A DNA stretch of 64,000 nucleotides. Origin: Clostridia bacterium (GTDB taxonomy: Bacteria > Bacillota > Clostridia > Oscillospirales > Acutalibacteraceae). Where the stretch lies: the NCBI GenBank assembly GCA_017428525.1, contig JAFRQQ010000002.1, positions 62,001 to 126,000 of the forward strand. The letters are read 5' to 3'. The notes below the pieces were generated by a model. That model made no database searches. It saw only the letters and a program-made list of their open reading frames with translations, and was not told the DNA's origin. The position numbers were made by a program, and so were the translations under genes. This document shows, in pieces, positions 25,271 through 49,050 of this stretch; within the stretch, counting starts at the first letter, position 1; every line of letters starts with the position of its first letter.

Positions 25271-25293
25271 AAATATCCCAAATTGGGATATTT
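25271..25293. promoter_or_regulatory. Operator 1 of the divergent XRE/membrane-protein pair
   Basis: A perfect palindrome, AAATATCCCAA, A, TTGGGATATTT (11-bp arms). It lies in the leader of the minus-strand gene. Confidence 0.75.
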
Positions 25294-25295
25294 TT

Positions 25296-25324
25296 ATTAT
25301 ACCATTTTGGGATAATAGTGTCAA
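25296..25324 (-). promoter_or_regulatory. Promoter of the FxLYD-like gene
   Basis: On the minus strand: TTGACA, 17 nt, TATAAT; perfect consensus, with operator 2 covering the -10 and spacer. Confidence 0.85.
25297..25315. promoter_or_regulatory. Operator 2 of the divergent pair
   Basis: TTATACCAT and TTGGGATAA form an imperfect palindrome sharing the TTGGGATA half-site with operator 1. The centres are 24 bp apart. Binding here would block the minus-strand promoter. Confidence 0.6.
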
Positions 25325-25335
25325 GAGGGGTTTTT

Positions 25336-25539
25336 ATGAGAATCAAAGAGTTAAGAACCAGCAGGCACTTGTCCCAATTGAAAATGGCGATGGATCTGAA
25401 CATGGCGCAAAACACGCTCAGCAGGTATGAAACCGGCGAACGTGAGCCGGGTATTAGTGAACTGATCCGAATCGCGGACTATTTTCAGGTTTCTGTCGAT
25501 TATCTGATTGGCCATTCGGATCATCCCGATCCGCGCTGA
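25336..25539 (+). CDS. Small XRE-family regulator
   Basis: 67 residues, essentially only a Cro/C1 helix-turn-helix: LRTSRHLSQLKMAMDLNMAQNTLSRYE, then the common ending ADYFQVSVDYLIGHSD. GAGGGG precedes the ATG. With no sensing domain it is a minimal DNA-binding protein. The divergent layout and the TTGGGATA palindromes in the gap point to regulation of itself and of the membrane protein gene. Confidence 0.85.
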   Translation: MRIKELRTSRHLSQLKMAMDLNMAQNTLSRYETGEREPGISELIRIADYFQVSVDYLIGHSDHPDPR

Positions 25540-25560
25540 TCGGAGTATTTTATATAACAA

Positions 25561-25626: not shown

Positions 25627-27306
25627 TTATTTCTTCAGCCCGAACAGGGTGCCGACCAGGCCGCGGCCGAGGCTCGCGCCGAGGTTGCCGCCGAGGGTCT
25701 TGCCGAATTTGCCGAAGCCGGAGCCGACCGCTTTGCCGACCTCGCGGCCGACCGTGCCGGCCACGGAGTTGCCGACGGATTTCGCGGCGTTGTTGACGGC
25801 CTTCTTCTTCTTATCCTTGGCCTTCTGCGCCTCTTTTTCGGCCTTCTCCTTTGCCTTCTGCTCTTCCTTTTCCTTCTGCGCGGCGGCCTTGGCTGCCGCT
25901 TTTTCTTCGGCTGCCGCCTGCTTGGCCGCTTCCTTTTCCGCGAGCGCCTGCTGCTTGGCGGCTTCTTTTTCCTCCGCCGCCTTGCGCGCGGCTTCCTCGG
26001 CCGCTTCGGCGTCCGCGATGCCCTTGCGCTGCAGGAATTCATAGGCGGAATCGTTGTCCACGGGATTGGTATACTTGCTGTAAAGCAGGCTGCTCTTGAT
26101 CGCGCGGTCGCGGTCCGCATCCGAAACGCCCGCCATCAGGCACTGCGGCGGCAGGATATAGGCCTTCTCCGCCACGGTGGGGATGCCCTTCTCATCCAGG
26201 AAGGAAACGACGGCTTCACCGGTGCCGAGATTGAGGATCGTTTCATAGGTGTCGAACGCGGGATTGACGCGGAAGGACTGCGCCGCCGCCTTGACCGCCT
26301 TCTGATCGGTCGGCGTGTAGGCGCGCAGACCGTGCTGAATCTTGTTGCCGAGCTGGGCAAGCACGCCGTCCGGAATGTCGCGCGGATTCTGCGTGCAGAA
26401 ATAGACGCCTACGCCCTTGGAGCGCACGAGCTTGACCACCTGCTCGATCTTGTCGAGCAGCGCCTTGGAGGTCTCCTTGAAGAGCAGATGCGCCTCGTCG
26501 AAGAAGAAGACGAGCTTCGGCTTGTCCAGATCGCCGACCTCGGGCAGCATCTCAAACAGTTCGCTGAGCAGCCAGAGCAGGAAGGTGGAGTAGAGCTTGC
26601 CGTTGTTGATCAGCGAGGAGCTGTCAAGGATATTGATCATGCCGCGTCCGCAGTCCTGGGTCAGCCAGTCGGCGATGTTCAGGCCGGGTTCGCCGAAGAA
26701 GGTGTCGGCGCCTTCGCTCTCGAGCGCCACGATCGCGCGCACGATCACGCCCACGGAGGCGCTGCTGATGCGGCCGTAGTCCGCGGCGAAATCGGCGGAA
26801 TGCTCGTCCACATAGGCGAGCGCCGCCTTGAGATCCTTGGTGTCGACCAGCAGAAGATTGTTGTCGTCACAGATTTTGAACACGATGGAAAGAATATTGC
26901 TCTGCGTTTCATTCAGACCGAGGATGCGCGCGAGCAGCAGCGGGCCCATTTCGGAGATCGTCGTGCGCAGCTGGATGCCCTGCTGACCGAACAGATCCCA
27001 GAGCGTGACGGGATAGCCGGTGTAATGGAAGCCGACCTCGTCCAGACCGAATTTGGCAATGCGCTTCTGCATGCTCTCGCTGTCGACGCCGGGCAGCATC
27101 ATGCCCGCCACGTCGCCCTTGACGTCCGCCATGAAGACGGGCACGCCCATGTCGCTGAAGGTCTCGGCGAGCACCTTGAGCGTGACGGTTTTGCCCGTGC
27201 CGGTCGCGCCGGCGACCAGACCGTGGCGGTTGGCCATCTTCGGCAGCAGATACAGGTTTTCGCCTGCGTCGTTGTTTGCAACCCAGATCATATTGTTTTT
27301 CAGCAT
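25627..27306 (-). CDS. HerA-like ATPase (DUF853 family)
   Basis: 559 residues. Walker A is GATGTGKT (33-40) and Walker B is KLVFFFDEAHLLF; the segment VYFCTQNPRDIPDGVLAQLGNKI is typical of the HerA/DUF853 helicase-like family. After about residue 420 there is a long Ala/Glu/Lys coiled coil and then a Gly-rich C-terminus (GKAVGSGFGKFGKTLGGN). The family is thought to move or process DNA, but its cell role in Firmicutes is unclear. It is a single-gene unit with a TAGACA-17-TATAAT promoter. Confidence 0.85.
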   Translation of the reverse strand: MLKNNMIWVANNDAGENLYLLPKMANRHGLVAGATGTGKTVTLKVLAETFSDMGVPVFMADVKGDVAGMMLPGVDSESMQKRIAKFGLDEVGFHYTGYPVTLWDLFGQQGIQLRTTISEMGPLLLARILGLNETQSNILSIVFKICDDNNLLLVDTKDLKAALAYVDEHSADFAADYGRISSASVGVIVRAIVALESEGADTFFGEPGLNIADWLTQDCGRGMINILDSSSLINNGKLYSTFLLWLLSELFEMLPEVGDLDKPKLVFFFDEAHLLFKETSKALLDKIEQVVKLVRSKGVGVYFCTQNPRDIPDGVLAQLGNKIQHGLRAYTPTDQKAVKAAAQSFRVNPAFDTYETILNLGTGEAVVSFLDEKGIPTVAEKAYILPPQCLMAGVSDADRDRAIKSSLLYSKYTNPVDNDSAYEFLQRKGIADAEAAEEAARKAAEEKEAAKQQALAEKEAAKQAAAEEKAAAKAAAQKEKEEQKAKEKAEKEAQKAKDKKKKAVNNAAKSVGNSVAGTVGREVGKAVGSGFGKFGKTLGGNLGASLGRGLVGTLFGLKK

Positions 27307-38316: not shown

Positions 38317-39561
38317 ATGGCATACAGCGAGCTGATTAAGAATTTCGACAGAGTCCGCGACTACATGCGGGATTTCTATGTTTACGGCTTCAAGAGCCGC
38401 AGCGAATATGATAAAAAGAGCGCGCGCTCCTATGACGACGAGCGCCGCCGGATGGAAAGCTGGCTCGGCGACTATATGGGCTTTCGGCAGACCGAGGACG
38501 GCAAGCATGTCTTTCTCTCGATCGACAGCCGCCTTTCGCGCCATAATCCGCTGTTCCGGGCGTGGAAAACCAAGAGCTTCACGGACGGCGACATCACCCT
38601 GCATTTCATCCTCTTTGATATTCTCAGCGATCCCGACGTCGAAATGACGGTCGGCGAGCTCTGCGACGCGATCCATGACGATTATCTTTCCGGCTTTGAC
38701 GAGCCGATGAGCTTTGACGAATCCACCGTGCGCAAAAAGCTCAAGGAATACACCGGCGAGGGCATTCTTTCCGCGCGCAGAATCGGCCGGTCCGTTTATT
38801 ACAGCCGCGTGCCCGACGCCGAGCTGGAATGTACCGACGCGCTGAATTTCTTTTCCGAGGTCGCGCCCTGCGGCGTGATCGGTTCGTTTCTGCTCGACAA
38901 GGTTGCGCCGGAGGATGAGATTTTTTCCTTCAAGCATCACTATATCACCCAGACGCTGGACAGCGGCATCCTCTGCGCGCTGTTTGACGCCATGCACCGG
39001 AAGGCGGCGGTCACGGTGCAGAATATCTCGCAGCGCACGAAAGAGTGTAAGGAATTCCGTCTGGTGCCGCTGCGCATCCTGATCAGCGTGCAGAACGGGC
39101 GGCAGCATCTGCTGGCGTTCCATATCGACAAGGGCTGCCTGATGACCCTGCGCGTCGACTACATCCGTTCGGTGGAAATCGGCGAAGCATTCCCGGAGTA
39201 TGACAGCCTGCGCAAATGGGGCAACCGGATTCAGGCGCATCTCTGGGGCGTGAGCGCGCACAAGAAGCGCAGCACGCTCGAGCATATCGAATTCACGGTC
39301 TGCTACGAGGAAGACGAGCAGCACATCCCCCTGCGTCTGGAGCGGGAAAAGCGCTGCGGCAAGGTCGAACGCATCGATGCGCGGCACGCGCGCTTCACCG
39401 CCGACGTTTCCGACAGCAACGAGCTCCTGCCCTGGATGCGCACATTCATCTGCAGGATCACGGCGCTGCAGATGACCAACCGCGCGGTGGAAGAAACATT
39501 CCGGAAGGATCTGGAAGATCTGTATCGCCTCTACGAAATCGACGGAGGTGACGACGGATGA
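38317..39561 (+). CDS. WYL-domain transcriptional regulator 1
   Basis: 414 residues. A predicted winged-helix region (about 105-165: MTVGELCDAIHDDY, DESTVRKKLKEYTGEGIL) precedes a WYL region (about 200-330) with VPLRILISVQNGRQHLLAFHID and an R-Y-I/R segment RVDYIRSVE. WYL domains bind nucleic-acid-derived or nucleotide ligands and regulate defence and repair genes. The gene overlaps the next WYL gene by 4 nt. It precedes the RNA array, DUF2828 and rtcB in the same direction and probably senses the trigger for them. Confidence 0.8.
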   Translation: MAYSELIKNFDRVRDYMRDFYVYGFKSRSEYDKKSARSYDDERRRMESWLGDYMGFRQTEDGKHVFLSIDSRLSRHNPLFRAWKTKSFTDGDITLHFILFDILSDPDVEMTVGELCDAIHDDYLSGFDEPMSFDESTVRKKLKEYTGEGILSARRIGRSVYYSRVPDAELECTDALNFFSEVAPCGVIGSFLLDKVAPEDEIFSFKHHYITQTLDSGILCALFDAMHRKAAVTVQNISQRTKECKEFRLVPLRILISVQNGRQHLLAFHIDKGCLMTLRVDYIRSVEIGEAFPEYDSLRKWGNRIQAHLWGVSAHKKRSTLEHIEFTVCYEEDEQHIPLRLEREKRCGKVERIDARHARFTADVSDSNELLPWMRTFICRITALQMTNRAVEETFRKDLEDLYRLYEIDGGDDG

Positions 39562-40460
39562 TCTTCAGCGAATTATATAATGTTTATTACAACGCGGTGG
39601 CGAAGATCCTTGCCGAAGCGGTCGCCGGGACGCTCGATGAAAAGCGGCTGAACGAAATCGTGGAGCAGGCGGCCTTCGGCGAGAGCTTTCTCACCATTCT
39701 TCCGGCGCTGAAGGCGCAGAAGTGGCAGCTGCTGCACGCCGACCGTTCCACGCCCCTGCGCCACAGTCCGACCATGCCGCTCACCGAGCTCGAGAAGCGC
39801 TGGCTCAAGGCGATCTCGCTTGACAGGCGCATCCAGCTGTTTGATCTGGATTTCTCCGGGCTGGAGGCGGTGGAGCCGCTCTTCACCGAAGAGGATTACA
39901 TCATCTATGATCAATGCAACGACGGCGATCCCTATGAGGATGCGGAATATATCGCGCATTTCCGGCTGGTCCTCGACGCGATCAGAAACCGGTATCCGCT
40001 GCACATGGTCATTCAGAACCGCCACGGCGTGCCCGTGACGATGAATGTGCTTCCCGAAGCGCTGGAGTATTCCGAAAAGGATGATAAATTCCGCGTCATC
40101 GCCCGTTCCACCGGTGCGGCGGTGATCAACGTCGCCCGGATCCGGTCCTGCGAACGGTATCGGGGCGGCAGACTGCGCGTGAGCGCCCGGGAACCGCAGA
40201 TGCGCACGCTTGTGTTTGACGTCACGGATGAACGCAACGCGCTCGAGCGCACAATGCTCCACTTTGCGCATTTTGAGAAGCAGACGGAGCGCATCGGCGA
40301 AAACCTGTATCGGGTGACGCTGCATTATAACCGGGAGGACGAAACGGAGCTTGTGATCCGGATCCTATCCTTCGGGCCGAAGATCCGGGTCGTTGCGCCG
40401 GAATCCTTCATCCAACTGATCAAAGAACGGTTAAAAAGACAAAAAAGTTGCGATTTGTGA
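39558..40460 (+). CDS. WYL-domain transcriptional regulator 2
   Basis: 300 residues, a shorter partner of the preceding WYL protein. The N-terminal 85 residues form a helical region (EQAAFGESFLTILPALKAQKW), and the WYL-like part covers about 130-215 (AIRNRYPLHMVIQNRHG, VLPEALEYSEKDDKFRVIAR). The last part resembles the WCX domain (RVTLHYNREDETELVIRIL, IKERLKRQ). Coupled translation with regulator 1 suggests a hetero-oligomer. A strong terminator overlaps its stop codon. Confidence 0.78.
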   Translation: MIFSELYNVYYNAVAKILAEAVAGTLDEKRLNEIVEQAAFGESFLTILPALKAQKWQLLHADRSTPLRHSPTMPLTELEKRWLKAISLDRRIQLFDLDFSGLEAVEPLFTEEDYIIYDQCNDGDPYEDAEYIAHFRLVLDAIRNRYPLHMVIQNRHGVPVTMNVLPEALEYSEKDDKFRVIARSTGAAVINVARIRSCERYRGGRLRVSAREPQMRTLVFDVTDERNALERTMLHFAHFEKQTERIGENLYRVTLHYNREDETELVIRILSFGPKIRVVAPESFIQLIKERLKRQKSCDL

Positions 40461-40489
40461 GCAAAAATCACAAGTTCGCAACTTTTTTT
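40446..40489 (+). terminator. Strong terminator overlapping the WYL2 stop
   Basis: AGTTGCGA and TCGCAACT pair, with an inner TTGTGA/TCACAA helix, followed by a run of T. It isolates the WYL transcript from the RNA array downstream, so the array needs its own promoter. A TAAAAT box at 40515-40520 is the only candidate seen, without a good -35. Confidence 0.9.
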
Positions 40490-40503
40490 CCGTGAAAAAT
40501 ACG

Positions 40504-40619
40504 GCTGCGGGTGCTAAAATTTGGTTGCAGGCGCGGCCCAACGGCAATTGGAGCCTATTTCCGCTGCACCTGCCGCCGCGCGGCAGACTTTAACTCTGTT
40601 TGCGCGGCGTTCCCGCAGC
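40504..40619 (+). ncRNA. Array RNA unit 1
   Basis: GCTGCGGG (40504-40511) and CCCGCAGC (40612-40619) close the unit. Inside are GGC-CCAA/TTGG-GCC around ACGGCAA, and a second arm CGCCGCGC/GCGCGGCG (40574-40581, 40602-40609) topped by a tRNA-anticodon-like arm: CAGA, 7-nt loop CTTTAAC, TCTG, with UUA at the anticodon position. It shares ACGGCAATTGGAGCCTATT (40541-40559) with unit 2. Confidence 0.6.
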
Positions 40620-40811
40620 GCGGGGAAGAACGGACGGATCCCTGTTTGATGAAAACAGCCGGTTCCTGCAAAACTGCCGAAATACCGTTGATCGGTGGTA
40701 CGGCAGACCGTAATTGTCTGTCTGGCTTCAGGATCTGTAGGACAGACAGGGTACGGCGGCCGCGCTTGTTCGGCAGAAGACATAGGAACACCTTTCCCGC
40801 ACTGCGTATGG
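40620..40811 (+). other. Structured spacer between array units 1 and 2
   Basis: No protein gene is seen. Several hairpins are present: CTGTTT/AAACAG (40642-40658), TGCCG/CGGCA (40676-40705), and GTCTGTC/GACAGAC (40716-40747), the last of which can alternate with a 5-bp arm CAGAC/GTCTG with a 7-nt loop. It may hold a further unit whose ends I cannot fix. Confidence 0.4.
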
Positions 40812-40893
40812 ATCCCCTAACGGCAATCGGAGCCTATTGTGGGGATTTGTACTTCTCGCCGCGCGGCGGTCTTGAAAACCGACCGCGCGGCGA
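40812..40893 (+). ncRNA. Array RNA unit 2, with tRNA-Ser(UGA)-like anticodon arm
   Basis: ATCCCC/GGGGAT (40812-40817, 40841-40846) encloses the repeat ACGGCAATCGGAGCCTATT (40820-40838). Then an 11-bp helix (40856-40866 with 40883-40893) carries CGGT, loop CTTGAAA, ACCG. That arm is the usual anticodon arm of bacterial tRNA-Ser(UGA), including U33 and A37. Confidence 0.62.
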
Positions 40894-40938
40894 AAGACGA
40901 CCGATCGGCCGTCAATTCTTATTTGAGGGCCGGGGGAA

Positions 40939-41020
40939 AAGATACCGACAGCAATCCCGCCATCCGAATGCCGGAGCAATCGTTCACGATTCCCGGAGGT
41001 TGATGAAAAAACGGTATCTT
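40939..41020 (+). ncRNA. Array RNA unit A
   Basis: AAGATACCG and CGGTATCTT form a 9-bp closing helix. ACAGCAAT follows the 5' strand directly (40948-40955). Inside, CCGG..CCGG and AATCG/CGATT with a UUCA loop stack into an arm. Confidence 0.65.
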
Positions 41021-41029
41021 GACGGAAGA

Positions 41030-41134
41030 AAAGCGCAGACAGCAATGAAAGGATTTGCGACAGCTCCACGGGGAGCACTTGACTGATAATCAAGCAACCG
41101 CGGGTTCGACTCCCGCTTGCAAAAAACGCGCTTT
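41030..41134 (+). ncRNA. Array RNA unit B, enclosing a tRNA-Ile-like cloverleaf
   Basis: AAAGCGC and GCGCTTT close the unit; ACAGCAAT is at 41039-41046. The inner 41054-41123 folds as a 70-nt cloverleaf: acceptor TTTGCGA/TTGCAAA (7 bp), D-arm GCTCC/GGAGC with only a 4-nt loop, anticodon arm CTTGA-CTGATAA-TCAAG with GAU, 5-nt variable region, and T-arm GCGGG-TTCGACT-CCCGC with a canonical T-loop. The D-loop lacks GG and no CCA is encoded, so it is a tRNA mimic and not a working tRNA gene by ordinary criteria. Confidence 0.75.
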
Positions 41135-41140
41135 GAACAA

Positions 41141-41231
41141 AAGATGCACACAAACCCTGGTGACCGTTTAACGGTGGGTCACACCCTGCGGCAGGCATGC
41201 CAAGGGGATGAGGGAAACATTTTCGCATCTT
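41141..41231 (+). ncRNA. Array RNA unit C
   Basis: AAGATGC and GCATCTT form the closing helix. The 5' inner motif is ACACAAA, a variant of the array motif. A GTGACC/GGTCAC arm capped by ACCG..CGGT (loop with UUUAA) lies inside, then CCCT..AGGG. Confidence 0.6.
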
Positions 41232-41237
41232 GCAATC

Positions 41238-41298
41238 AGACGCTGACAGCAGAAAATGTGGAACCGGAATGCGTGCCGGTCTTGATCACACGGCGTCT
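41238..41298 (+). ncRNA. Array RNA unit D
   Basis: AGACGC and GCGTCT form a 6-bp closing helix; ACAGCAGA starts at 41246. An ACCGG/CCGGT arm lies inside. It is short and less certain than its neighbours. Confidence 0.5.
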
Positions 41299-41318
41299 TG
41301 GCCGGGCAACCGGCAACT

Positions 41319-41399
41319 AAGGCACACACAGCAATGGATTGATAATCTGGATGGGTCAGCACCGGACAGTGCGGACACCCTACTTATTTTTTGTGCCTT
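41319..41399 (+). ncRNA. Array RNA unit E
   Basis: AAGGCAC and GTGCCTT form the closing helix; ACAGCAAT is at 41328-41335. A short arm with loop TTGATAA (GAU at the anticodon position) follows, then nested GGGT..ACCC and GCAC/GTGC helices. Confidence 0.62.
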
Positions 41400-41522
41400 G
41401 CTTCCGGCTTGTGTTTGGCGAGTCACGCAGTTTTACTCCCGGATACAGGCCGGATCAGATCGTTCATTCCGCGCCCGGACAGCATCGGGCGCTGATGATA
41501 ACCCCGCGGGGGTCTTGCGGAA
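41400..41522 (+). other. Structured spacer between units E and F
   Basis: It contains a 7-bp hairpin GCGCCCG/CGGGCGC (41471-41492) whose loop is GACAGCAT, a near copy of the array motif, and the self-complementary CCCCGCGGGG. No protein gene is seen. Confidence 0.4.
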
Positions 41523-41602
41523 AAGGCACACGCAGCAATGCGCTGTCGGCGATAGAGCGGTGAGAGCCGCTCGGCGGGCTCATACCCCGATTACGGTGCC
41601 TT
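41523..41602 (+). ncRNA. Array RNA unit F, with tRNA-fMet-like anticodon arm
   Basis: AAGGCAC and GTGCCTT close the unit, identical to unit E; GCAGCAAT is at 41532-41539. Inside, GAGCGG/CCGCTC resembles a D-arm, and CGGG-CTCATAC-CCCG is an anticodon arm with CAU, close to that of initiator tRNA. There is no T-arm. Confidence 0.62.
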
Positions 41603-41624
41603 GCGTTCCCGTCCCCGCATCAAA

Positions 41625-41713
41625 AAGGTGCAAACAGCAATCGAGATCTGACCGAATCATACGGACTTCCCGACGCTGCAATCCGCAGACGTCGCAGTGA
41701 CTCATTGCACCTT
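41625..41713 (+). ncRNA. Array RNA unit G
   Basis: AAGGTGCA and TGCACCTT form an 8-bp closing helix; ACAGCAAT is at 41634-41641. Inside, CCG..CGG with a 7-nt loop and CGACG-CTGC/GCAG-CGTCG arms are present. The 3' strand is followed by GTTTTT, which could end or process the RNA. Confidence 0.65.
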
Positions 41714-41841
41714 GTTTTTCGGCGGCGTTTTTTACGGTGTTCTTCCGGAACTGACGGTGATCCGAATACGCCCGGGCTTCAAGGCGGTAAAACCTGATCC
41801 TCCGGGACTGCTTCCGAAAGAACGGCACGAAAAGACGGAAA
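41714..41841 (+). other. Spacer between units G and H
   Basis: It holds a T tract (41728-41733) and a small CGCC/GGCG hairpin near 41769-41785. No gene and no clear closing helix are seen. Confidence 0.35.
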
Positions 41842-41894
41842 AAAGCACGCACAGCAACCACGACCGATTTTGAGCGATTTCCGGACTGTGCTTT
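41842..41894 (+). ncRNA. Array RNA unit H
   Basis: AAAGCAC and GTGCTTT form the closing helix; ACAGCAAC is at 41851-41858. It is the shortest unit (53 nt) and lies 46 nt before the DUF2828 gene, so it may sit in that gene's leader. Confidence 0.55.
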
Positions 41895-41940
41895 GCGCCG
41901 AATGATGAATCATAATGAAAGGAAAGAAAGGAAGAGTATC

Positions 41941-43431
41941 ATGCTGAATTATCTCAAACACGAAGCTGCAAAAACATATACCGAAAACGACGCGCGCACC
42001 TACCGTTCAACGGGCGCCGACTGCCTCGACCTTTTCTCTTCCATCGGCGCCATCCGCCGCAACACCGAAGAGGATATCATCGATCGCTTTCTCCGGGCGT
42101 TTACCGAAAACCCGGACCTGGCGATAAAAATTCTGTTCTTCGGCAGAGATGTGCGCGGCGGCTTGGGAGAGCGCCGCGTTTTTCGTATCCTCCTGAAATG
42201 GCTGGCGGAAAACGCGCCGCAGTCCCTGCGCAAGAATATCGGCTATATCGCCGAATACGGCCGGTGGGACGATCTGCTCGCCCTGCTGGATACGCCCTGC
42301 CGGAGCGACGCGCTGCGCGTGATCGAAACGCAGCTGGAAGCGGATAAAAAGGCCTTAGCGGCGGGGGATGAGGTCTCGCTGCTGGCCAAGTGGCTGCCCT
42401 CGGTCAACGCGAGCAATGCGGAAACGGTCCGGCACGCGAAGACGGTCGCAAAGCATCTCGGCATGACCGATGCGCAGTACAGAAAGACCCTTGTCGCGCT
42501 CCGGGCAAAGATCCGGATCATCGAAAACAACCTGCGCGAAAAGGACTATACCTTTGACTATGAAAAGCAGCCGTCCAAGGCGATGTTCAAGTATCGCGCC
42601 GCCTTCAGCCGCAACGACGGTGAGCGCTACGGCGCCTTCCTCGCCCGTGTGGAAAAAGGGGAAGCGAAGCTTCACGCGGATACGCTCGCGCCCTATGAGC
42701 TGGTCGAGCCGTATCTCGACTATCGGTTTGCCCGTGGCGTATCGAGCAATATGCGGAAAATATCCGAGAATGAAAAGGCGACCCTGAACGCCACGTGGGC
42801 CTCGCTGCCGCACTACGGCAACGATGAAAACGCGCTCGCGGTCATCGACACCTCCGGCTCCATGTACGGCGGCAGCCGTCCGCTGCCCGCCGCGGTCGCG
42901 CTTTCGCTCGGCCTGTATTTCGCGGAGCACAACAAGGGCGCGTTCGCGAACAGTTTTATTGAGTTCTCGGCAAAGCCGCAGCTCATTGAGGTCAAGGGCG
43001 ACACCTTCGCCGACCGTCTGCGCTATATCTGCACCTTCAATAGAATTGCAAATACGAATGTCGACGCCGTGTTTGACCTGATCCTCGAAACGGCGGTCCG
43101 GCATCACGTCCCGCAGGAGGAGCTGCCGTCGACGCTCTACCTGATCTCCGATATGGAGTTCGACTGTTGCGTGGAAAACGCGGAGCTCACGAATTTCGAG
43201 CGCGCTGCCGCCCGCTTCGCGGCGCAGGGCTACAAGCTGCCGAACGTCGTATTCTGGAATGTGGCCAGCCGGCACGGCCATCAGCCGGTGCGCATGAATG
43301 ACGCCGGCGTCGCGCTGGTTTCCGGCTGCACGCCGCGCCTGTTTGACATGGTGATGCGCGGCGAGTTGTCCCCGTATAAAATGATGATGGAGATCATCGG
43401 CAGCGAACGGTATGAAAAAATAGCGGCGTAA
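41941..43431 (+). CDS. DUF2828 family protein, Ro60/TROVE-like with vWA domain
   Basis: 496 residues. The N-terminal two thirds are helical with TROVE-like segments (LFSSIGAIRRN, LFFGRDVRGGLGERRVFRILLKWLA, PSVNASNAETVRHAKTVAKHLG), which in Ro60 form the RNA-binding ring. The C-terminal vWA domain keeps the MIDAS motif DTSGS (303-307). The start at 41941 follows AAGGAAG. The gene sits between the RNA array and rtcB. Ro-like proteins bind Y RNAs and misfolded RNAs, and here the array would supply the RNA partners; this is inference from position and fold. Confidence 0.82.
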   Translation: MLNYLKHEAAKTYTENDARTYRSTGADCLDLFSSIGAIRRNTEEDIIDRFLRAFTENPDLAIKILFFGRDVRGGLGERRVFRILLKWLAENAPQSLRKNIGYIAEYGRWDDLLALLDTPCRSDALRVIETQLEADKKALAAGDEVSLLAKWLPSVNASNAETVRHAKTVAKHLGMTDAQYRKTLVALRAKIRIIENNLREKDYTFDYEKQPSKAMFKYRAAFSRNDGERYGAFLARVEKGEAKLHADTLAPYELVEPYLDYRFARGVSSNMRKISENEKATLNATWASLPHYGNDENALAVIDTSGSMYGGSRPLPAAVALSLGLYFAEHNKGAFANSFIEFSAKPQLIEVKGDTFADRLRYICTFNRIANTNVDAVFDLILETAVRHHVPQEELPSTLYLISDMEFDCCVENAELTNFERAAARFAAQGYKLPNVVFWNVASRHGHQPVRMNDAGVALVSGCTPRLFDMVMRGELSPYKMMMEIIGSERYEKIAA

Positions 43432-43462
43432 GCGCATGCGCCGCCTGAAAGGAAGAGGAAAC

Positions 43463-44686
43463 ATGTTTACGATCAGCGGCGCATACAACACCGCAAAAAT
43501 ATTTACAGACGCCGTCGACGACATCGCGGCGGAGCAGATCAAAGCCCTCTGTGACCAGAGCTTCACGGAGGGCTGCAGGATCCGGATCATGCCCGACGCC
43601 CACGCCGGCGCGGGCTGCGTGATCGGTTTCACGGCCAACCTGGGCGACAAGGTGATCCCCAACATCGTCGGCGTGGATATCGGCTGCGGGATGCTGACGG
43701 TCATGCTCGGCAAAACGGAGATCGATTTCGACGCGCTCGACGTGGTGATCCGCACGCAGATTCCTTCCGGCACGTTTGTGCACGCGGGCAGGATCGCAAG
43801 ATTCCCCGAATTGCAGGAAATGGACTGTTTCAGAAGCCTGAAGGATACCAAGCGGATCGAAAGAAGCATCGGCACGCTCGGCGGCGGCAATCACTTTATT
43901 GAGATTGACTGCGACGACGAAGGCAACAAGTATCTCGTGATCCACTCCGGCTCCAGAAATCTCGGCAAGCAGGTGGCGGAGCATTATCAGGCCCTGGCCT
44001 ATGATCTTCACAGAGGCATGGACCGGTTTTTTGAAAAGCAGCAGGAGATCATCGAGGGCTACAAGGCGGCCGGCAGAAAAACCGAAATCCAGGCTGCGCT
44101 CAAGGCGCTGAAAAAGGACTACCGGTGCAAGGAGTCGCCGATTCCCCGGGAGCTCTGCTATCTTTACGGCGCTTACAGAGACAGTTATCTGAAGGATATG
44201 AAGCTCTGCCAGCAATACGCCGTGCGCAACAGAGCCATGATGGCGAAAATCATTCTGCACGCGATGTTCGGCAAAGAGCTTGCGGAATTCGGCTCGTTTG
44301 AAACGGTCCACAATTATATCGATCACAAGAGCAATATCATCCGCAAGGGCGCGGTTTCCGCGCAGCAGGGCGAGCTGCTGCTCATCCCCATCAATATGCG
44401 CGACGGCTCGCTCATCTGCATCGGCAAGGGAAATGAGGACTGGAACTGCTCCGCGCCGCATGGGGCGGGCAGGCTGTATTCCAGATCGCAGGCCAGGGCG
44501 CTGTTCACCGTGGAGGAATTCGCCGCGTGCATGCAGGACGTCTACACCACCTGCATCTGCAGCGGCACGCTCGACGAAAGCCCGATGGCTTACAAAACCA
44601 TGGACGATATCGTGAACAATATCTCCCCGACCGCGGAAATCGTGAAGGTCATCCGCCCGCTGTATAACTTCAAAGCGACGGGATGA
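43463..44686 (+). CDS. rtcB: RtcB RNA ligase
   Basis: 407 residues, shorter than the classic 480-residue form and closer to RtcB2-type proteins. The Mn/GTP site is complete: VDIGCGM (D72, C75), GGGNHFIE (N143, H144), VIHSGSRNLG (H161), H283 and the guanylylated His in SAPHGAGR (H333). It joins RNA 2',3'-cyclic phosphate or 3'-phosphate ends to 5'-OH ends, as in tRNA repair after cleavage by nucleases. It follows DUF2828 by 31 nt and is certainly co-transcribed. No archease gene is present in the window. Confidence 0.93.
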   Translation: MFTISGAYNTAKIFTDAVDDIAAEQIKALCDQSFTEGCRIRIMPDAHAGAGCVIGFTANLGDKVIPNIVGVDIGCGMLTVMLGKTEIDFDALDVVIRTQIPSGTFVHAGRIARFPELQEMDCFRSLKDTKRIERSIGTLGGGNHFIEIDCDDEGNKYLVIHSGSRNLGKQVAEHYQALAYDLHRGMDRFFEKQQEIIEGYKAAGRKTEIQAALKALKKDYRCKESPIPRELCYLYGAYRDSYLKDMKLCQQYAVRNRAMMAKIILHAMFGKELAEFGSFETVHNYIDHKSNIIRKGAVSAQQGELLLIPINMRDGSLICIGKGNEDWNCSAPHGAGRLYSRSQARALFTVEEFAACMQDVYTTCICSGTLDESPMAYKTMDDIVNNISPTAEIVKVIRPLYNFKATG

Positions 44687-44703: not shown

Positions 44704-44767
44704 GAAAAGGGCGTAAACTGAAAGCGGCAGGATGAAGGAGCGGGCATCAACATGCCGCTGTATTTTG

Positions 44768-44841
44768 AGGCAACGGAGAAAAAGAGAGGAGGAAGATCAC
44801 ATGTATTTGCCCTGTTGGACCGACGGCCTGACCTGGCAGGA
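44768..44841 (+). repeat. 74-bp exact repeat, copy 1
   Basis: It covers the ribosome site and first 13 codons of the gene at 44801 and is identical to 47152-47225. Confidence 0.9.
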
Positions 44842-45964
44842 GCAGTTTGATTGCTATTGGATCGCAAAAGGCACATCCCCTTATGAAAAGGATGAGAATC
44901 CGCCGACCTTTCTGTCTTTGCTGCCGATCCGGTTTTACAACCATACAACCTCTTGTTATGGCGTGAATCTGCATTATTATCAATTGCCGCCCCGTTCCGG
45001 AAACAGCGACAGTGACGATGTTCGGACGTTCCGCATCCTTCACAGCCGGGAAGTATTTGCGCTTGAGCTCTGGAAACGGGCCGCGCAGATCGTTGCCGAT
45101 GAATTCCCGCTGCTCGAAAACCTTCAGTTCGGGGAGCAGCAATTTGACGGCGTTTATCCGATCACATTTCAGTATCCGGTTGAGCAGGTTGCCGCGCGGC
45201 AGGAAGCGATCATGCGTAAACTGATCGACGACGGGTTTTCGATCGAAGAATCCCTTGCGGTTCGCTGTGAAGAAACCGAACACGGAAAAAGATGGACGTA
45301 TGAAGGGATCGTCAGCCTGTCGGAAGAGGAAATGAAGGAACTCTTTTCCGACCTGCCGTATGGCGATCTGCCTGCGATCCGATGGAATAAGCAAATTCGT
45401 TATCCTTATGAAGCGTGCGAAGCGTATTATAAATCGTTTGATGCGCGGATCCTGACCCTTGGCAATCAGTACAGAAAATACGAATGCAGCGATTCGGCGT
45501 TGGAAGCAGCGATTGAACGCATGGATTTCAAAGGGATCAAATTGGATGAAAAAGACGGTCGACGACTGAACGAAATCACAAAATTCGGGGATTCTGTGTT
45601 TTCCGATGTCACTTGTTTTCGCATTGACGCTGAAAACCTGAATGAAGCAGTCATAGCGTTTCTTGATGCCTGTGTCGCTGCGGGCGCCAATCCCGCCGTC
45701 TATGGGATCACAGGAGATTCAGTGCTTGTCGATGCGGCGGAATGGAACGAGCACCGCATGACGGAATGGCTGCTGAAGCAGGGCGTCGACCTGAACATTC
45801 ATCCCTTCCTTGACGATTATTATGACGCAGAGCATACCCTGCTCGACTGGATCGATCACCGGTATGATGAAGCATACGGAGATGAGGATCTTCTGGCGGC
45901 AACAAAGAAAACCATTGATCTGTTGGAACAGTATGGCGCGAAAAGAGAAAAAATCGTTTATTAG
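44801..45964 (+). CDS. Unknown protein with ankyrin-like C-terminus (paralogue 1)
   Basis: 387 residues, start after AGAGGAGG. The N-terminus MYLPCWTDGLTWQ and the block FGEQQFDGVYPITFQYPVE are shared with the protein at 47185-49050. The last third has ankyrin-like pairs: AVIAFLDACVAAGANPAVYG and MTEWLLKQGVDLNIHPF. No enzyme motif is recognised. Composition is more AT-rich than rtcB and upstream. Position downstream of rtcB could mean a shared transcript, but a functional link is unproven. Confidence 0.65.
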   Translation: MYLPCWTDGLTWQEQFDCYWIAKGTSPYEKDENPPTFLSLLPIRFYNHTTSCYGVNLHYYQLPPRSGNSDSDDVRTFRILHSREVFALELWKRAAQIVADEFPLLENLQFGEQQFDGVYPITFQYPVEQVAARQEAIMRKLIDDGFSIEESLAVRCEETEHGKRWTYEGIVSLSEEEMKELFSDLPYGDLPAIRWNKQIRYPYEACEAYYKSFDARILTLGNQYRKYECSDSALEAAIERMDFKGIKLDEKDGRRLNEITKFGDSVFSDVTCFRIDAENLNEAVIAFLDACVAAGANPAVYGITGDSVLVDAAEWNEHRMTEWLLKQGVDLNIHPFLDDYYDAEHTLLDWIDHRYDEAYGDEDLLAATKKTIDLLEQYGAKREKIVY

Positions 45965-45975
45965 GAGGCTCCGGT

Positions 45976-46377
45976 ATGAACGAAACACAAAAGGCCGCCT
46001 GGAAATACTGCGTCGTCGGCAACATCGTCAAGACGCATATTGATGCAAACGGCGTTCTGCGCTACGGCACGGTCGCGTATTCCGGCGGCACAAGGGTCTA
46101 TCTGTGCGGAAAGTATTGGAGCTCCGACGAAGAAACGATCGATGTGATCGGCTTGAGCAGGAGAGGAAGACAGCATTGTGTCAATGAAACGCCGGTCGAA
46201 CTGATCGAAAACGTGCGGCTGTCAAGGACATATAAACCTGCCATACTGGCGCTCATGAACACCCCGGAGTTTCAAGATTGTTGGTGGAACAACACCCCGG
46301 AGGATCGCGCGGAGGCAGAAGCGTTCGTGGCGGAATGGAAGACGCGCTTTGAGCAGAAAGAGGGAGGAGAAACATGA
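45976..46377 (+). CDS. Unknown small protein
   Basis: 133 residues, AGGAGG before the start, 11 nt after the preceding gene and overlapping the next by 4 nt. No family is recognised. It is rich in Trp and Cys (YCVVGNIV, KYWSSDEETIDVIG, FQDCWWNNTPEDRAEAEAFVAEWK) and has no signal peptide or membrane segment, so a small cytosolic beta-alpha protein is likely. Confidence 0.6.
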   Translation: MNETQKAAWKYCVVGNIVKTHIDANGVLRYGTVAYSGGTRVYLCGKYWSSDEETIDVIGLSRRGRQHCVNETPVELIENVRLSRTYKPAILALMNTPEFQDCWWNNTPEDRAEAEAFVAEWKTRFEQKEGGET

Positions 46378-47078
46378 ACCTGGAACCGGATTCCGTTCTG
46401 ATATTCAAGCGTGAATTGACACGTTACGGCATGGAGCCGTTCACAACAGACCCGGACGCCTTCCGGGGAAAGCTGCAGTCGCTCGGCGTCGTCGGCCTGC
46501 GGATCAAGGATATCAGACTTACGGGACTGAACACGACGTATATTGAACCCTGTCTTTGCCGCAGCTTAGAGGAATACAAAGCTCTGCCGGAGAATTGGAA
46601 GCCTGCGATCCGGCGCTGCTTTGCCGAAACCGATCCGCCGCTGCTGATCCGGCTGGAGGATGACAGGATCCTCTCGCTGAGTTCTGTTGAAGATTATGAA
46701 TACGGCGAGGTTTATTATGCGGAGCTGGATGCCATGCAGTGGGAGGGTCAGTTCGACGAATGGTGGGACAAGCGGATCGACGAGTGGAATCCGCCGAACT
46801 GCAATGCCAACGTGCTGTTCGGCAAAGCCATCGGCATGAAAATCGACGGGTTTCAGATGAATACCGCGTTTTGCAGCAACGGCGAACCCTATATGACGTC
46901 TTATGCGTTGGAATTGATTTCTGCCGAACCGCCCTTTGAGCGTCTGGAACTGACGTTTGAATGTCATTTCGGTTACAATTGGATCGCGCTGGAGAAAAAC
47001 GGCGCCGTGCTGGAGCTGCCCGAGGCGCAGATCCCGGCGCTGTTTGCGGGCTTTGAAGACTGGAAGGATGTGTTTTGA
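46374..47078 (+). CDS. Unknown protein
   Basis: 234 residues, coupled to the previous gene by an ATGA overlap. No family is recognised. Trp- and acid-rich segments (WEGQFDEWWDKRIDEWNPPN) and a C-terminal beta-rich part (LELTFECHFGYNWIALEKNGAVLEL) are visible. The style resembles immunity-type proteins found in polymorphic-toxin loci, but that is only an impression. Confidence 0.6.
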   Translation: MNLEPDSVLIFKRELTRYGMEPFTTDPDAFRGKLQSLGVVGLRIKDIRLTGLNTTYIEPCLCRSLEEYKALPENWKPAIRRCFAETDPPLLIRLEDDRILSLSSVEDYEYGEVYYAELDAMQWEGQFDEWWDKRIDEWNPPNCNANVLFGKAIGMKIDGFQMNTAFCSNGEPYMTSYALELISAEPPFERLELTFECHFGYNWIALEKNGAVLELPEAQIPALFAGFEDWKDVF

Positions 47079-47151
47079 TGCTTCATCTGACAAGCAGAGA
47101 AGACGCGCTTTCATTTTCATAGCGGTTAGAACGGTGTGCTTTTATGCATCA

Positions 47152-47225
47152 AGGCAACGGAGAAAAAGAGAGGAGGAAGATCACATGTATTTGCCCTGTT
47201 GGACCGACGGCCTGACCTGGCAGGA
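47152..47225 (+). repeat. 74-bp exact repeat, copy 2
   Basis: Identical to 44768-44841, again covering a ribosome site and the first 13 codons. The identity at third codon positions implies a recent duplication or gene conversion. Confidence 0.9.
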
Positions 47226-49050
47226 TAAGCATTTTTGTTATCTGATTGATATCGATGTTCGAAGCGCAAAGGATTATTCGCTTTATTCTCTGCTGCCCGT
47301 CAGATATGCCGGTGATTTCAAATCCCTCGACGGAGCACCATTCTATTCGTGCGATCGGTCTGACAGCGGAGCGGAAATCCACAGAGAATTCAGATTATGC
47401 AACAGTCTGGATTATTATTCCTCCGTGTTATGGGAAAAATCTGCGGAACTGATCCTGAAGGAGTTTCAGGATATTGAGAAAATCAGGTTCGGCAAGCAGG
47501 GGTTTGACGGTGTCTATCCGATCGAATTCCGTTATCCGGTCGCTTTGATTGAAAAAAGGCAAAAAGAGATCATGCAGGAACTGATCGACGGCGGGTTTTC
47601 GATCGATGAAAGTATCCGGACGTCTGTTGAGGAGAACGGAAAGGTAAAAACCATACGGTATTTTTGTGTCGCCGATTTAACCTACAGAGAAGCGGAACGG
47701 ATCTTTAATTCGACGCCGTGCGGGCAGGATCCACCGATCGAGCTCAGAAAGAACATTTCGTATTCCTATGAAGCGTGTTCGAATGATTTTCTTACTTTCA
47801 GTGAACGGTTGCTGGAATGCGGAAATCAGCGCCGGTGCTACCGCGAAAGAAACAAAGACCTGAATGCGGCCATCAAAGGCAAGCGTCTGGACGAAGTGAA
47901 ACGATTGATCCGAAAAGGCGACAGTCTGAATGAAATATCCAAAGACGGTGAATCCGTTTTCACCGCGATCGTCAAATACTGCATGGATATTTATGATGGA
48001 ATAACGGACAGAGATATTGAATATCTTGATGAGCTGGTTGAAATGGGCGCAAATCCCGGTGTGTTCGGTGGGTTTGAGGATGATTTGCTGACAGTAGCCA
48101 TCACCCATCGGCAGAACCTGCTTGTAAAATGGTTGCTGGATAAAGGCGTCAATCCGAATCAGCATCCGTTTCCGGATGACGCGTTTGAGGCCTCAACCAC
48201 ATTGCTCGACTGGGTTTACAGCCTGGATAACGAGCTGTATCTCGATGACGACCCGGAAGAAGCACATCGGATCAATCTGGAACAAATAGCATTACTGGAA
48301 GCCCATGGCGCAAAATTCGGAAGCAGGATCCTGCTGACAGAGAATTCTTTTATGCTTTATGATCTCATGTGGACGCTGACTCCGGATTTCGATGCGATCC
48401 GGCAGTTGATCGAGCAAAACAGGATGACGCCGGAAGAAATCACACGCACCGCAATCAGGTTTGTTGAAGATGCCGCCTGGGAGGATCTGGATTGCCCGCA
48501 GCTCAATGACAACATCGTGCGCCGGCCGCTGTTTGTCGAAAGCCTGCACAGCGCCTGTCTGTATGACCTGATCCGACTCCTGCTTGACTATGGACTTGAG
48601 CCGAATGCAGTTTATAATGAGGACAATCTGATTGAACAAGTCGTGAAGATCATCAACGCCGATCAGGCGGCAGATACGCTTGCGCTTCTGCTGGAAAACG
48701 GCGGCGACGTGAATGTCACGGTGAAAGACGAACGGGTCTTTGACAGCCTGGAGTTCGATGTGTTCTTCGGCAGACATGAGATGCCAGGCCGAAGGAATTA
48801 TGACGCGCTGGTGCATTGCTGGATGGTGTTCATCGGCTACGGCGTCAAAGCATCAAACGGCAGATGCCCGGTCGATTCGGTCTATCGGCCCGATCAGAAT
48901 GAGGAATTCGGCATCAAGGATTTTGAGCTCTCCGATTTGAAGGTGCATAAAGACTTTGCTTTCTGCATTTCTAATATGCCCTCCAACGGTGAATCCTACA
49001 CCATCCACATTTTTGACAATCGCACCAAATGGGAAGTCGCGCGCGTATAA
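47185..49050 (+). CDS. Unknown ankyrin-like protein (paralogue 2, extended)
   Basis: 621 residues. The first 390 residues align in order with paralogue 1 (MYLPCWTDGLTWQ, FGKQGFDGVYPIEFRYPV, LDGWFSIDE-type segment, ankyrin-like LDEVKRLIRKGDSLNE, LVKWLLDKGVNPNQHPF). A further 230 residues add more ankyrin-like units (LIRLLLDYGLEPNAVYNE, TLALLLENGGDVNVTV) and a small C-terminal domain. It is a cytosolic scaffold-like protein without enzyme motifs. Confidence 0.68.
   Translation: MYLPCWTDGLTWQDKHFCYLIDIDVRSAKDYSLYSLLPVRYAGDFKSLDGAPFYSCDRSDSGAEIHREFRLCNSLDYYSSVLWEKSAELILKEFQDIEKIRFGKQGFDGVYPIEFRYPVALIEKRQKEIMQELIDGGFSIDESIRTSVEENGKVKTIRYFCVADLTYREAERIFNSTPCGQDPPIELRKNISYSYEACSNDFLTFSERLLECGNQRRCYRERNKDLNAAIKGKRLDEVKRLIRKGDSLNEISKDGESVFTAIVKYCMDIYDGITDRDIEYLDELVEMGANPGVFGGFEDDLLTVAITHRQNLLVKWLLDKGVNPNQHPFPDDAFEASTTLLDWVYSLDNELYLDDDPEEAHRINLEQIALLEAHGAKFGSRILLTENSFMLYDLMWTLTPDFDAIRQLIEQNRMTPEEITRTAIRFVEDAAWEDLDCPQLNDNIVRRPLFVESLHSACLYDLIRLLLDYGLEPNAVYNEDNLIEQVVKIINADQAADTLALLLENGGDVNVTVKDERVFDSLEFDVFFGRHEMPGRRNYDALVHCWMVFIGYGVKASNGRCPVDSVYRPDQNEEFGIKDFELSDLKVHKDFAFCISNMPSNGESYTIHIFDNRTKWEVARV

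Follow-up and report, generated by a model that had tools for sequence, protein, structure and literature searches.

The window, i.e. the whole 64-kb stretch of DNA that was analysed, carries two regulator genes of the WYL type, followed by a gap (40461-41940) that encodes eight tandem RNA units with a common clamp and differing heads, and then by the genes for a DUF2828/DUF7788 protein and an RtcB RNA ligase (Table 1). Open reading frames within the gap overlap the RNA units on both strands. The terminator-like hairpin at the 5' side of the gap, which overlaps the end of the WCX gene and is absent from the consensus-scan listing, would mark a boundary between the regulator transcript and the array. 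On the 3' side of rtcB (44732-49050) lie several genes that match nothing in Pfam, and one that weakly matches ankyrin and the PADLOC entry PDC-M72A.

Table 1. Features of the array and its neighbourhood (window positions; L007 and L011 are the corresponding loci in the sister genome G001 and in genome G005)
Feature	Position	Strand	Evidence and remarks
WYL-domain regulator gene	38317..39561	+	Pfam WYL, E 4.6e-6
WCX-domain (WYL-type) regulator gene	39558..40460	+	Pfam WCX, E 1.9e-5
Terminator-like hairpin, seven T at its end	40441..40489	+	read directly from the sequence
Accessory hairpin with ACGGCAATTGGAGCCTATT, not a clamp unit	40537..40559	+	repeat family D8
Accessory hairpin, second copy, ACGGCAATCGGAGCCTATT	40816..40838	+	repeat family D8
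Unit 1	40939..41021	+	clamp AAGATACCG/CGGTATCTTG, motif ACAGCAAT; kept in L007, L011
Unit 2	41030..41135	+	clamp AAAGCGC/GCGCTTTG, motif ACAGCAAT, complete tRNA-like head; kept in L007, L011
tRNA-Ile(GAT)-like domain in unit 2, without CCA	41054..41124	+	ARAGORN; Rfam tRNA 53.1 bits
Unit 3	41141..41232	+	clamp AAGATGC/GCATCTTG, degenerate motif ACACAAA; L007 copy with ACAGCAAT
Unit 4	41238..41299	+	clamp AGACGC/GCGTCT, ACAGCAG; L007 copy AAGACGCC with ACAGCAAT; kept in L011
Unit 5	41319..41400	+	clamp AAGGCACA/TGTGCCTTG, motif ACAGCAAT; kept in L007, L011
Unit 6	41523..41603	+	clamp AAGGCAC/GTGCCTTG, motif GCAGCAAT; kept in L007
Unit 7	41625..41714	+	clamp AAGGTGCAA/TTGCACCTTG, motif ACAGCAAT; kept in L007, L011
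Unit 8	41842..41895	+	clamp AAAGCAC/GTGCTTTG, motif ACAGCAAC; kept in L007, L011
DUF2828/DUF7788 gene	41941..43431	+	predicted Ro60 fold, vWA MIDAS motif
RtcB RNA ligase gene	43436..44686	+	Pfam RtcB, E 8.8e-59

The DUF2828 protein is predicted to adopt the Ro60 fold, i.e. a ring of helical repeats joined to a vWA domain, and the MIDAS motif DxSxS of the latter (D303, S305, S307) is invariant across 50 sequences. In Pfam the protein matches DUF2828 and DUF7788 only, with no TROVE match, and a comparison with PDB sequences returned no Ro60 chain at E<=10. The RtcB protein matches PHROG 1075 (tRNA splicing ligase, E 3.4e-130) as well as its best solved relative, also an RtcB, with an E value of 4.8e-11, the DIGCG/DINCG, HSGSR/HTGSR and HGAGR stretches being aligned; RtcB ligates 2',3'-cyclic-phosphate ends (PMC7824862). 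Pfam scans of the eight proteins encoded nearby turned up neither an rtcA cyclase nor an RtcR regulator. According to PADLOC the DUF2828 and RtcB proteins match no listed defence protein, and the two regulators give generic WYL/Csa3 matches only.

All eight closing helices described in the earlier note are present, with 9, 7, 7, 6, 8, 7, 9 and 7 uninterrupted Watson-Crick pairs, and in each unit the 3' strand is the exact complement of its own 5' strand. The same note had counted at least ten units, of which these eight stand, whereas the remaining two (ACGGCAAT, at 40537 and 40816) are hairpins of another type. The exact pattern of these accessory hairpins (ACGGCAATYGGAGCCTATT) occurs in the own genome and in G005 only, among 40 genomes searched; a looser copy with a closing stem of its own is seen at locus L008. 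The motif RCAGCAA lies 0-2 nt past the 5' strand in six of the eight units, the exceptions being ACAGCAG (41238) and ACACAAA (41141), and the sister-genome copies of both exceptions carry ACAGCAAT; a G comes next after the 3' clamp strand in seven of the eight. All eight units recur in unchanged order in the sister genome, whose DUF2828 protein is 88% identical, with the first seven stem letters identical in seven units and one letter off in unit 4, and G005 has six of the eight. When one mismatch is allowed, ACAGCAAT is not enriched window-wide (52 matches versus 43.2 expected). A strict finder, which demands both pairing and CAGCA, recovers six units on the forward strand of the window (five of them in the gap) and one on the reverse strand.

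Related arrays beside DUF2828 genes are found throughout the genomic set, which consists of the best 80 of at least 485 confirmed DUF2828 relatives; most of its record titles name Clostridia or clostridial families, and Fusobacterium naviforme, Synergistaceae, Planctomycetales and Thermoguttaceae appear in one record each. At these loci the strict finder detects 250 units on the gene strand and 4 on the opposite strand, and 246 of the 250 lie upstream of DUF2828. Every one of the 80 loci carries an upstream unit and 66 carry two or more, up to a maximum of nine (L012), and the last unit ends a median of 43 nt before the DUF2828 start codon. At 80 viral loci the counts are 91 versus 5, with at least one unit at 48 loci, and here 72 of the 91 gene-strand units lie upstream and 19 downstream of the gene. 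The frequency of the motif in this output is no evidence, because the finder requires CAGCA, and because it also demands pairing a separate test was run in which 5' sites were picked by sequence alone upstream of the 80 relatives. The own 7-mer complement was present within 170 nt for 246 of 294 sites, versus a mean of 5.2% (maximum 7.9%) after the stems had been swapped; for viral sites this was 72 of 147 versus 2.4%. The pairing thus lies far above that of swapped stems, but the initial claim that pairing and not sequence is kept goes too far, in that the stem sequence is also partly kept: in 245 units that begin with AA the next letters are R-R-Y-R-C, the changes at positions 3 to 6 are nearly all transitions, and almost every unit has a C at position 7. 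Nor do the stems within one array differ more than expected by chance (44 identical pairs out of 378 versus 46.8 +/- 6.4 when shuffled), and the idea that they are chosen to differ is not supported on this count.

Further searches were made with other patterns. Pattern AARRYRCNNACAGCAA yielded 5, 6, 2, 3, 4 and 1 matches in six genomes with a DUF2828 match; single matches are uninformative, because one or two are also present in 22 of 54 other genomes, which lack such a match. A relaxed finder applied to eight named records gave 21 units on the gene strand versus 4 on the other, three of the latter in finno and one in F207. No clamp unit was found in Vibrio phage D491s, and in Mycobacterium phage Rose5 the finder detected none and three units were recognized by eye downstream of the gene. 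At gathering thresholds, Rfam returned tRNA matches only for the window and eight further loci.

RtcB was detected at 55 of the 80 genomic loci, and at 51 it starts within about 1 kb downstream on the same strand; among the 25 loci where it was not detected, 23 belong to the 76 whose downstream sequence spans 600 nt or more. Homologues of the WYL-domain and WCX regulators occur at 63 and 64 of the 80 loci. Within the flanks examined, no RtcB was found at any of the 80 viral loci, and WYL genes were likewise found at none of them; in the Listeria phages P100 and CKA15 a tRNA splicing ligase is annotated 1.3 kb downstream.

What the clamps enclose resembles, in many cases, parts of tRNA. The window itself has one full tRNA-like head, in unit 2, and the other seven units show no tRNA match. 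A plain tRNA gene at 41054 was rejected as the whole story, since the domain sits within a clamp. Its anticodon stem equals that of the host tRNA-Lys, yet its anticodon is GAT, and the copies in L007 and L011 carry other anticodons, GAA and TAT. All 31 distinct host tRNAs (read from 30 loci, of 38 matches) end in CCA, which is missing from 20 of 20 tRNA calls inside strict clamps; its absence is weak support and does not discriminate clamp heads, because 15 of 20 calls outside strict clamps lack it as well. In addition, the head of unit 6 has an initiator-tRNA-like anticodon arm (CGGGCTCATACCCCG, 41575-41589), one letter apart from that of the host initiator-type tRNA (CGGGCTCATAACCCG), with a 4-bp stem that fails the strict 5-bp test described below.

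That test, i.e. a 5-bp stem closing a 7-nt anticodon-type loop with T loops excluded, was applied to 275 distinct non-viral heads. An anticodon-type hairpin is present in 68 of them, versus 3.5 +/- 1.7 in shuffles and 4-13 for six control types of 7-nt loop, and 46 of these 68 have no T arm. T arms occur in 62 heads (0.5 in shuffles), and 167 of the 275 have neither element. Viral heads behave similarly, with anticodon-type hairpins in 23 of 84 (shuffles 1.9, controls 1-6) and T arms in 15 of 84 (shuffles 0.02). The 69 anticodon hairpins called, of which at least one is wrong (the 'CGG' of L059 at 3792 is a T-arm variant), cover 31 triplets, with an A34 other than ACG in four and a stop-reading triplet in two. 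Loops identical to a natural loop of the host or of O. valericigenes make up 32 of the 69, versus 14.5 +/- 2.8 after shuffling of the triplets. In eleven heads, found with a loose pattern, a T arm precedes a D-arm-like stretch; those of L077 and L088 and some of the viral ones are read, from sequence, as circularly permuted tRNAs.

Two further observations concern the choice of anticodons. Among 24 anticodon hairpins in viral units, Lys TTT is the most frequent with five (L104, L111, L133, L134 and L135), three of the five units being similar in sequence; tRNA-Lys TTT is the target of PrrC-type anticodon nucleases. In a Christensenellaceae record (L078:4406-5963) eight tRNA calls, each with an anticodon of its own, lie beside DUF2828; two strict clamp units are found among them, and their heads share two of the anticodons (Glu TTC, Lys CTT), an arrangement that is phage-like.

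The likeness extends to rRNA. Seven of 357 heads match one and the same 32-nt stretch of 23S rRNA on the same strand (E 1e-8 to 4e-4), whereas the 15 opposite-strand matches in the rRNA operon have an E of 0.005 or weaker and include none at this stretch. Outside tRNA genes, no second rRNA site recurs at E<=0.001 among the 357 heads. In four cases (L012, L034, L060 and L064) the AAAUU strand follows the hairpin rather than preceding it, so that the site is reassembled in another order; L061 and L031 have the stretch in its natural order. We take the stretch to be H70/H71, presumably the site of action of a MazF toxin and of a uridine methyltransferase. A PTC-like match noticed by eye in L012 (unit 5229) was dropped, as it was absent from the rRNA comparison at E<=0.1.

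Which part of a tRNA is kept depends on the kind of head. A set of 27 similar tRNA-like units, selected by eye, has a consensus fold made up of the clamp and the D, anticodon and T arms, with 22 pairs of which 12 show paired changes (L013 is misaligned at its 3' end in alignment A3). The anticodon arm is their most variable part (1.36 bits per column, versus 0.57 for the D arm, 0.43 for the T arm and 0.25 for the 5' clamp), its stem being kept by paired changes. It is the D/T elbow and not the anticodon that is kept in these units, because only 12 of the 27 pass the strict anticodon-hairpin test and, among the 15 that fail, two miss it by a single mismatch and several carry a tetraloop in place of the anticodon loop. 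There are thus two kinds of heads, namely elbow heads, in which the tRNA body matters, and anticodon heads with a loop of natural type; the former argue for docking of an elbow-binding partner and the latter for capture of anticodon-reading enzymes.

Taken together, we consider it possible, at a probability of roughly 0.45, that the units are interchangeable baits, carried on the Ro60-like protein, for enzymes that cut tRNA or rRNA, and that RtcB reseals them. A single transcript would be cleaved into the eight units, and each RNA would sit by its clamp on the ring that the protein is predicted to form. The head would then occupy an enzyme that cuts tRNA or rRNA. After a cut in the bait, its two halves would be kept in contact by the clamp and rejoined by RtcB, and the WYL regulators would control the array. 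This reading is weakened by the elbow heads, by the 167 of 275 heads that fall in neither class, by the failure to detect RtcB at the viral loci, and by a report that YrlA fragments were not detected in Salmonella with cut tRNAs (PMC7790460). A broader proposal, which we make tentatively and at somewhat less than even odds, is that a Ro60-like particle, carrying a genetically encoded library of exchangeable copies of translation-RNA targets, may serve bacteria and phages as renewable armour against RNA-cutting toxins and defence nucleases; as part of the same proposal, the library would hold anticodon arms, whole and circularly permuted tRNAs and the rebuilt 23S H70/H71 site.

Alternatively, the heads may be docking adaptors that bring PNPase, or other proteins acting on tRNA or rRNA, to the Ro60-like ring for RNA decay or quality control, a reading that is somewhat less probable than baits. 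YrlA, which tethers Rsr to PNPase (PMC8394870), sets a precedent, and the YrlA model gives sub-threshold matches to the permuted tRNA heads of L077, L088 and Rose5; the elbow heads, moreover, keep the D and T arms and the clamp while most fail the anticodon test. Baits are nevertheless preferred over adaptors because of the 46 anticodon-loop units without a T arm, the spread of their anticodons and the 23S copies, all of which adaptors leave unexplained, and because of the ligase. The heads could also act as damage sensors, a cut head altering the Ro60-like protein or the input of the WYL regulators and so switching the operon on, in keeping with the frequent WYL/WCX genes and with the reported regulation of the Salmonella RNA repair operon by damaged tRNA (PMC7790460). 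This is unlikely, in that a few heads would suffice for sensing, yet arrays reach nine strict units, and in that no WYL gene was detected at the viral loci. Still more improbable is that the heads are by-products without a role, i.e. tRNA genes that were captured or are decaying and sit caught between repeats: ordinary tRNA genes are indeed interspersed with units in phages and in L078, and the large unclassified fraction would fit, but paired changes keep the head stems, all eight units are kept in order in L007, and rearrangement, not decay, is seen in four of the seven 23S copies. Finally, that RtcB circularizes or matures the units, with the clamp juxtaposing their ends and the ligase, often encoded close downstream, closing them, is very improbable, as the sequence holds no evidence of cut ends and 25 of the 80 loci have no detected RtcB.

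The array brings together, as one heritable unit in many bacteria and phages, RtcB, a protein predicted to fold like Ro60 and many tRNA- and rRNA-shaped RNAs, and the clamp plus ACAGCAA beside DUF2828 provides a signature by which such RNAs can be found. If the units are baits, predictions follow on the nuclease drawn by each head, on resealing by RtcB and on the survival of phages facing anticodon nucleases. In the open-access literature searched we found no description of such arrays and no paper with both DUF2828 and RtcB. The idea of a decoy is not new, as a 2020 paper, which leaves the role of bacterial Ro proteins and Y RNAs beside rtcB open, raised the possibility that YrlA competitively inhibits an anticodon nuclease (PMC7790460); for a library of target copies no description was found in the same literature search.

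Among phages, a homologous protein is known as PHROG 850 or 'Ro-like RNA binding protein' (677 records; mycobacteriophages, Listeria and Felix O1-type phages), and ROT/TROVE proteins occur in some jumbo phages (PMC7824862). Several PHROG 850 phages have candidate ACAGCAA clamp units like those of the present array, although these are few, lie beside phage tRNA genes and often have stems of other sequence. In Listeria phage CKA15 the homologue CKA15_055 was found in purified virions and likened to Rsr, and abundant RNAs near its gene were suggested to be Y RNAs (PMC12282133). Of three abundant regions, the one with stated coordinates (26,236-26,727) contains no ACAGCAA unit, unlike the present array, the three candidate clamp units lying at 25,289-25,552, 0.7 kb away, so the CKA15 transcripts were rejected as evidence that units are expressed. 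This region (L257:2477-2968; about 490 nt), strongly folded and reportedly the most transcribed of the phage (PMC12282133), is perhaps a separate large noncoding RNA.

The closest known system is the rsr-yrlBA-rtcBA operon with Rsr and YrlA, and the earlier note's interpretation of the locus as a Ro/Y RNA/rtcB-like array is supported overall. Shared traits are the Ro60-fold protein (predicted here), mimicry of tRNA (in the window a full domain in unit 2, with no tRNA match in the other seven units), the nearby rtcB and a long helix that closes the RNA by joining its 5' and 3' ends, seen in eight of eight window units with 6 to 9 pairs. The Rfam YrlA model (RF02553) has no match in the window, and none at E<=1 in the gap; heads of the relatives L077 (47.7 bits), L088 (32.8 bits) and L246 and of mycobacteriophage Rose5 (36.4 bits) match it below its threshold of 69 bits, with that of L077 the best. 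Compared with the Rsr operon, the present locus has DUF2828 in place of a Pfam TROVE match and WYL/WCX regulators upstream. Where Rsr is accompanied by YrlA, the present arrays have up to nine strict units, and their heads in DUF2828 relatives include, unlike YrlA, anticodon arms and the 23S stretch.
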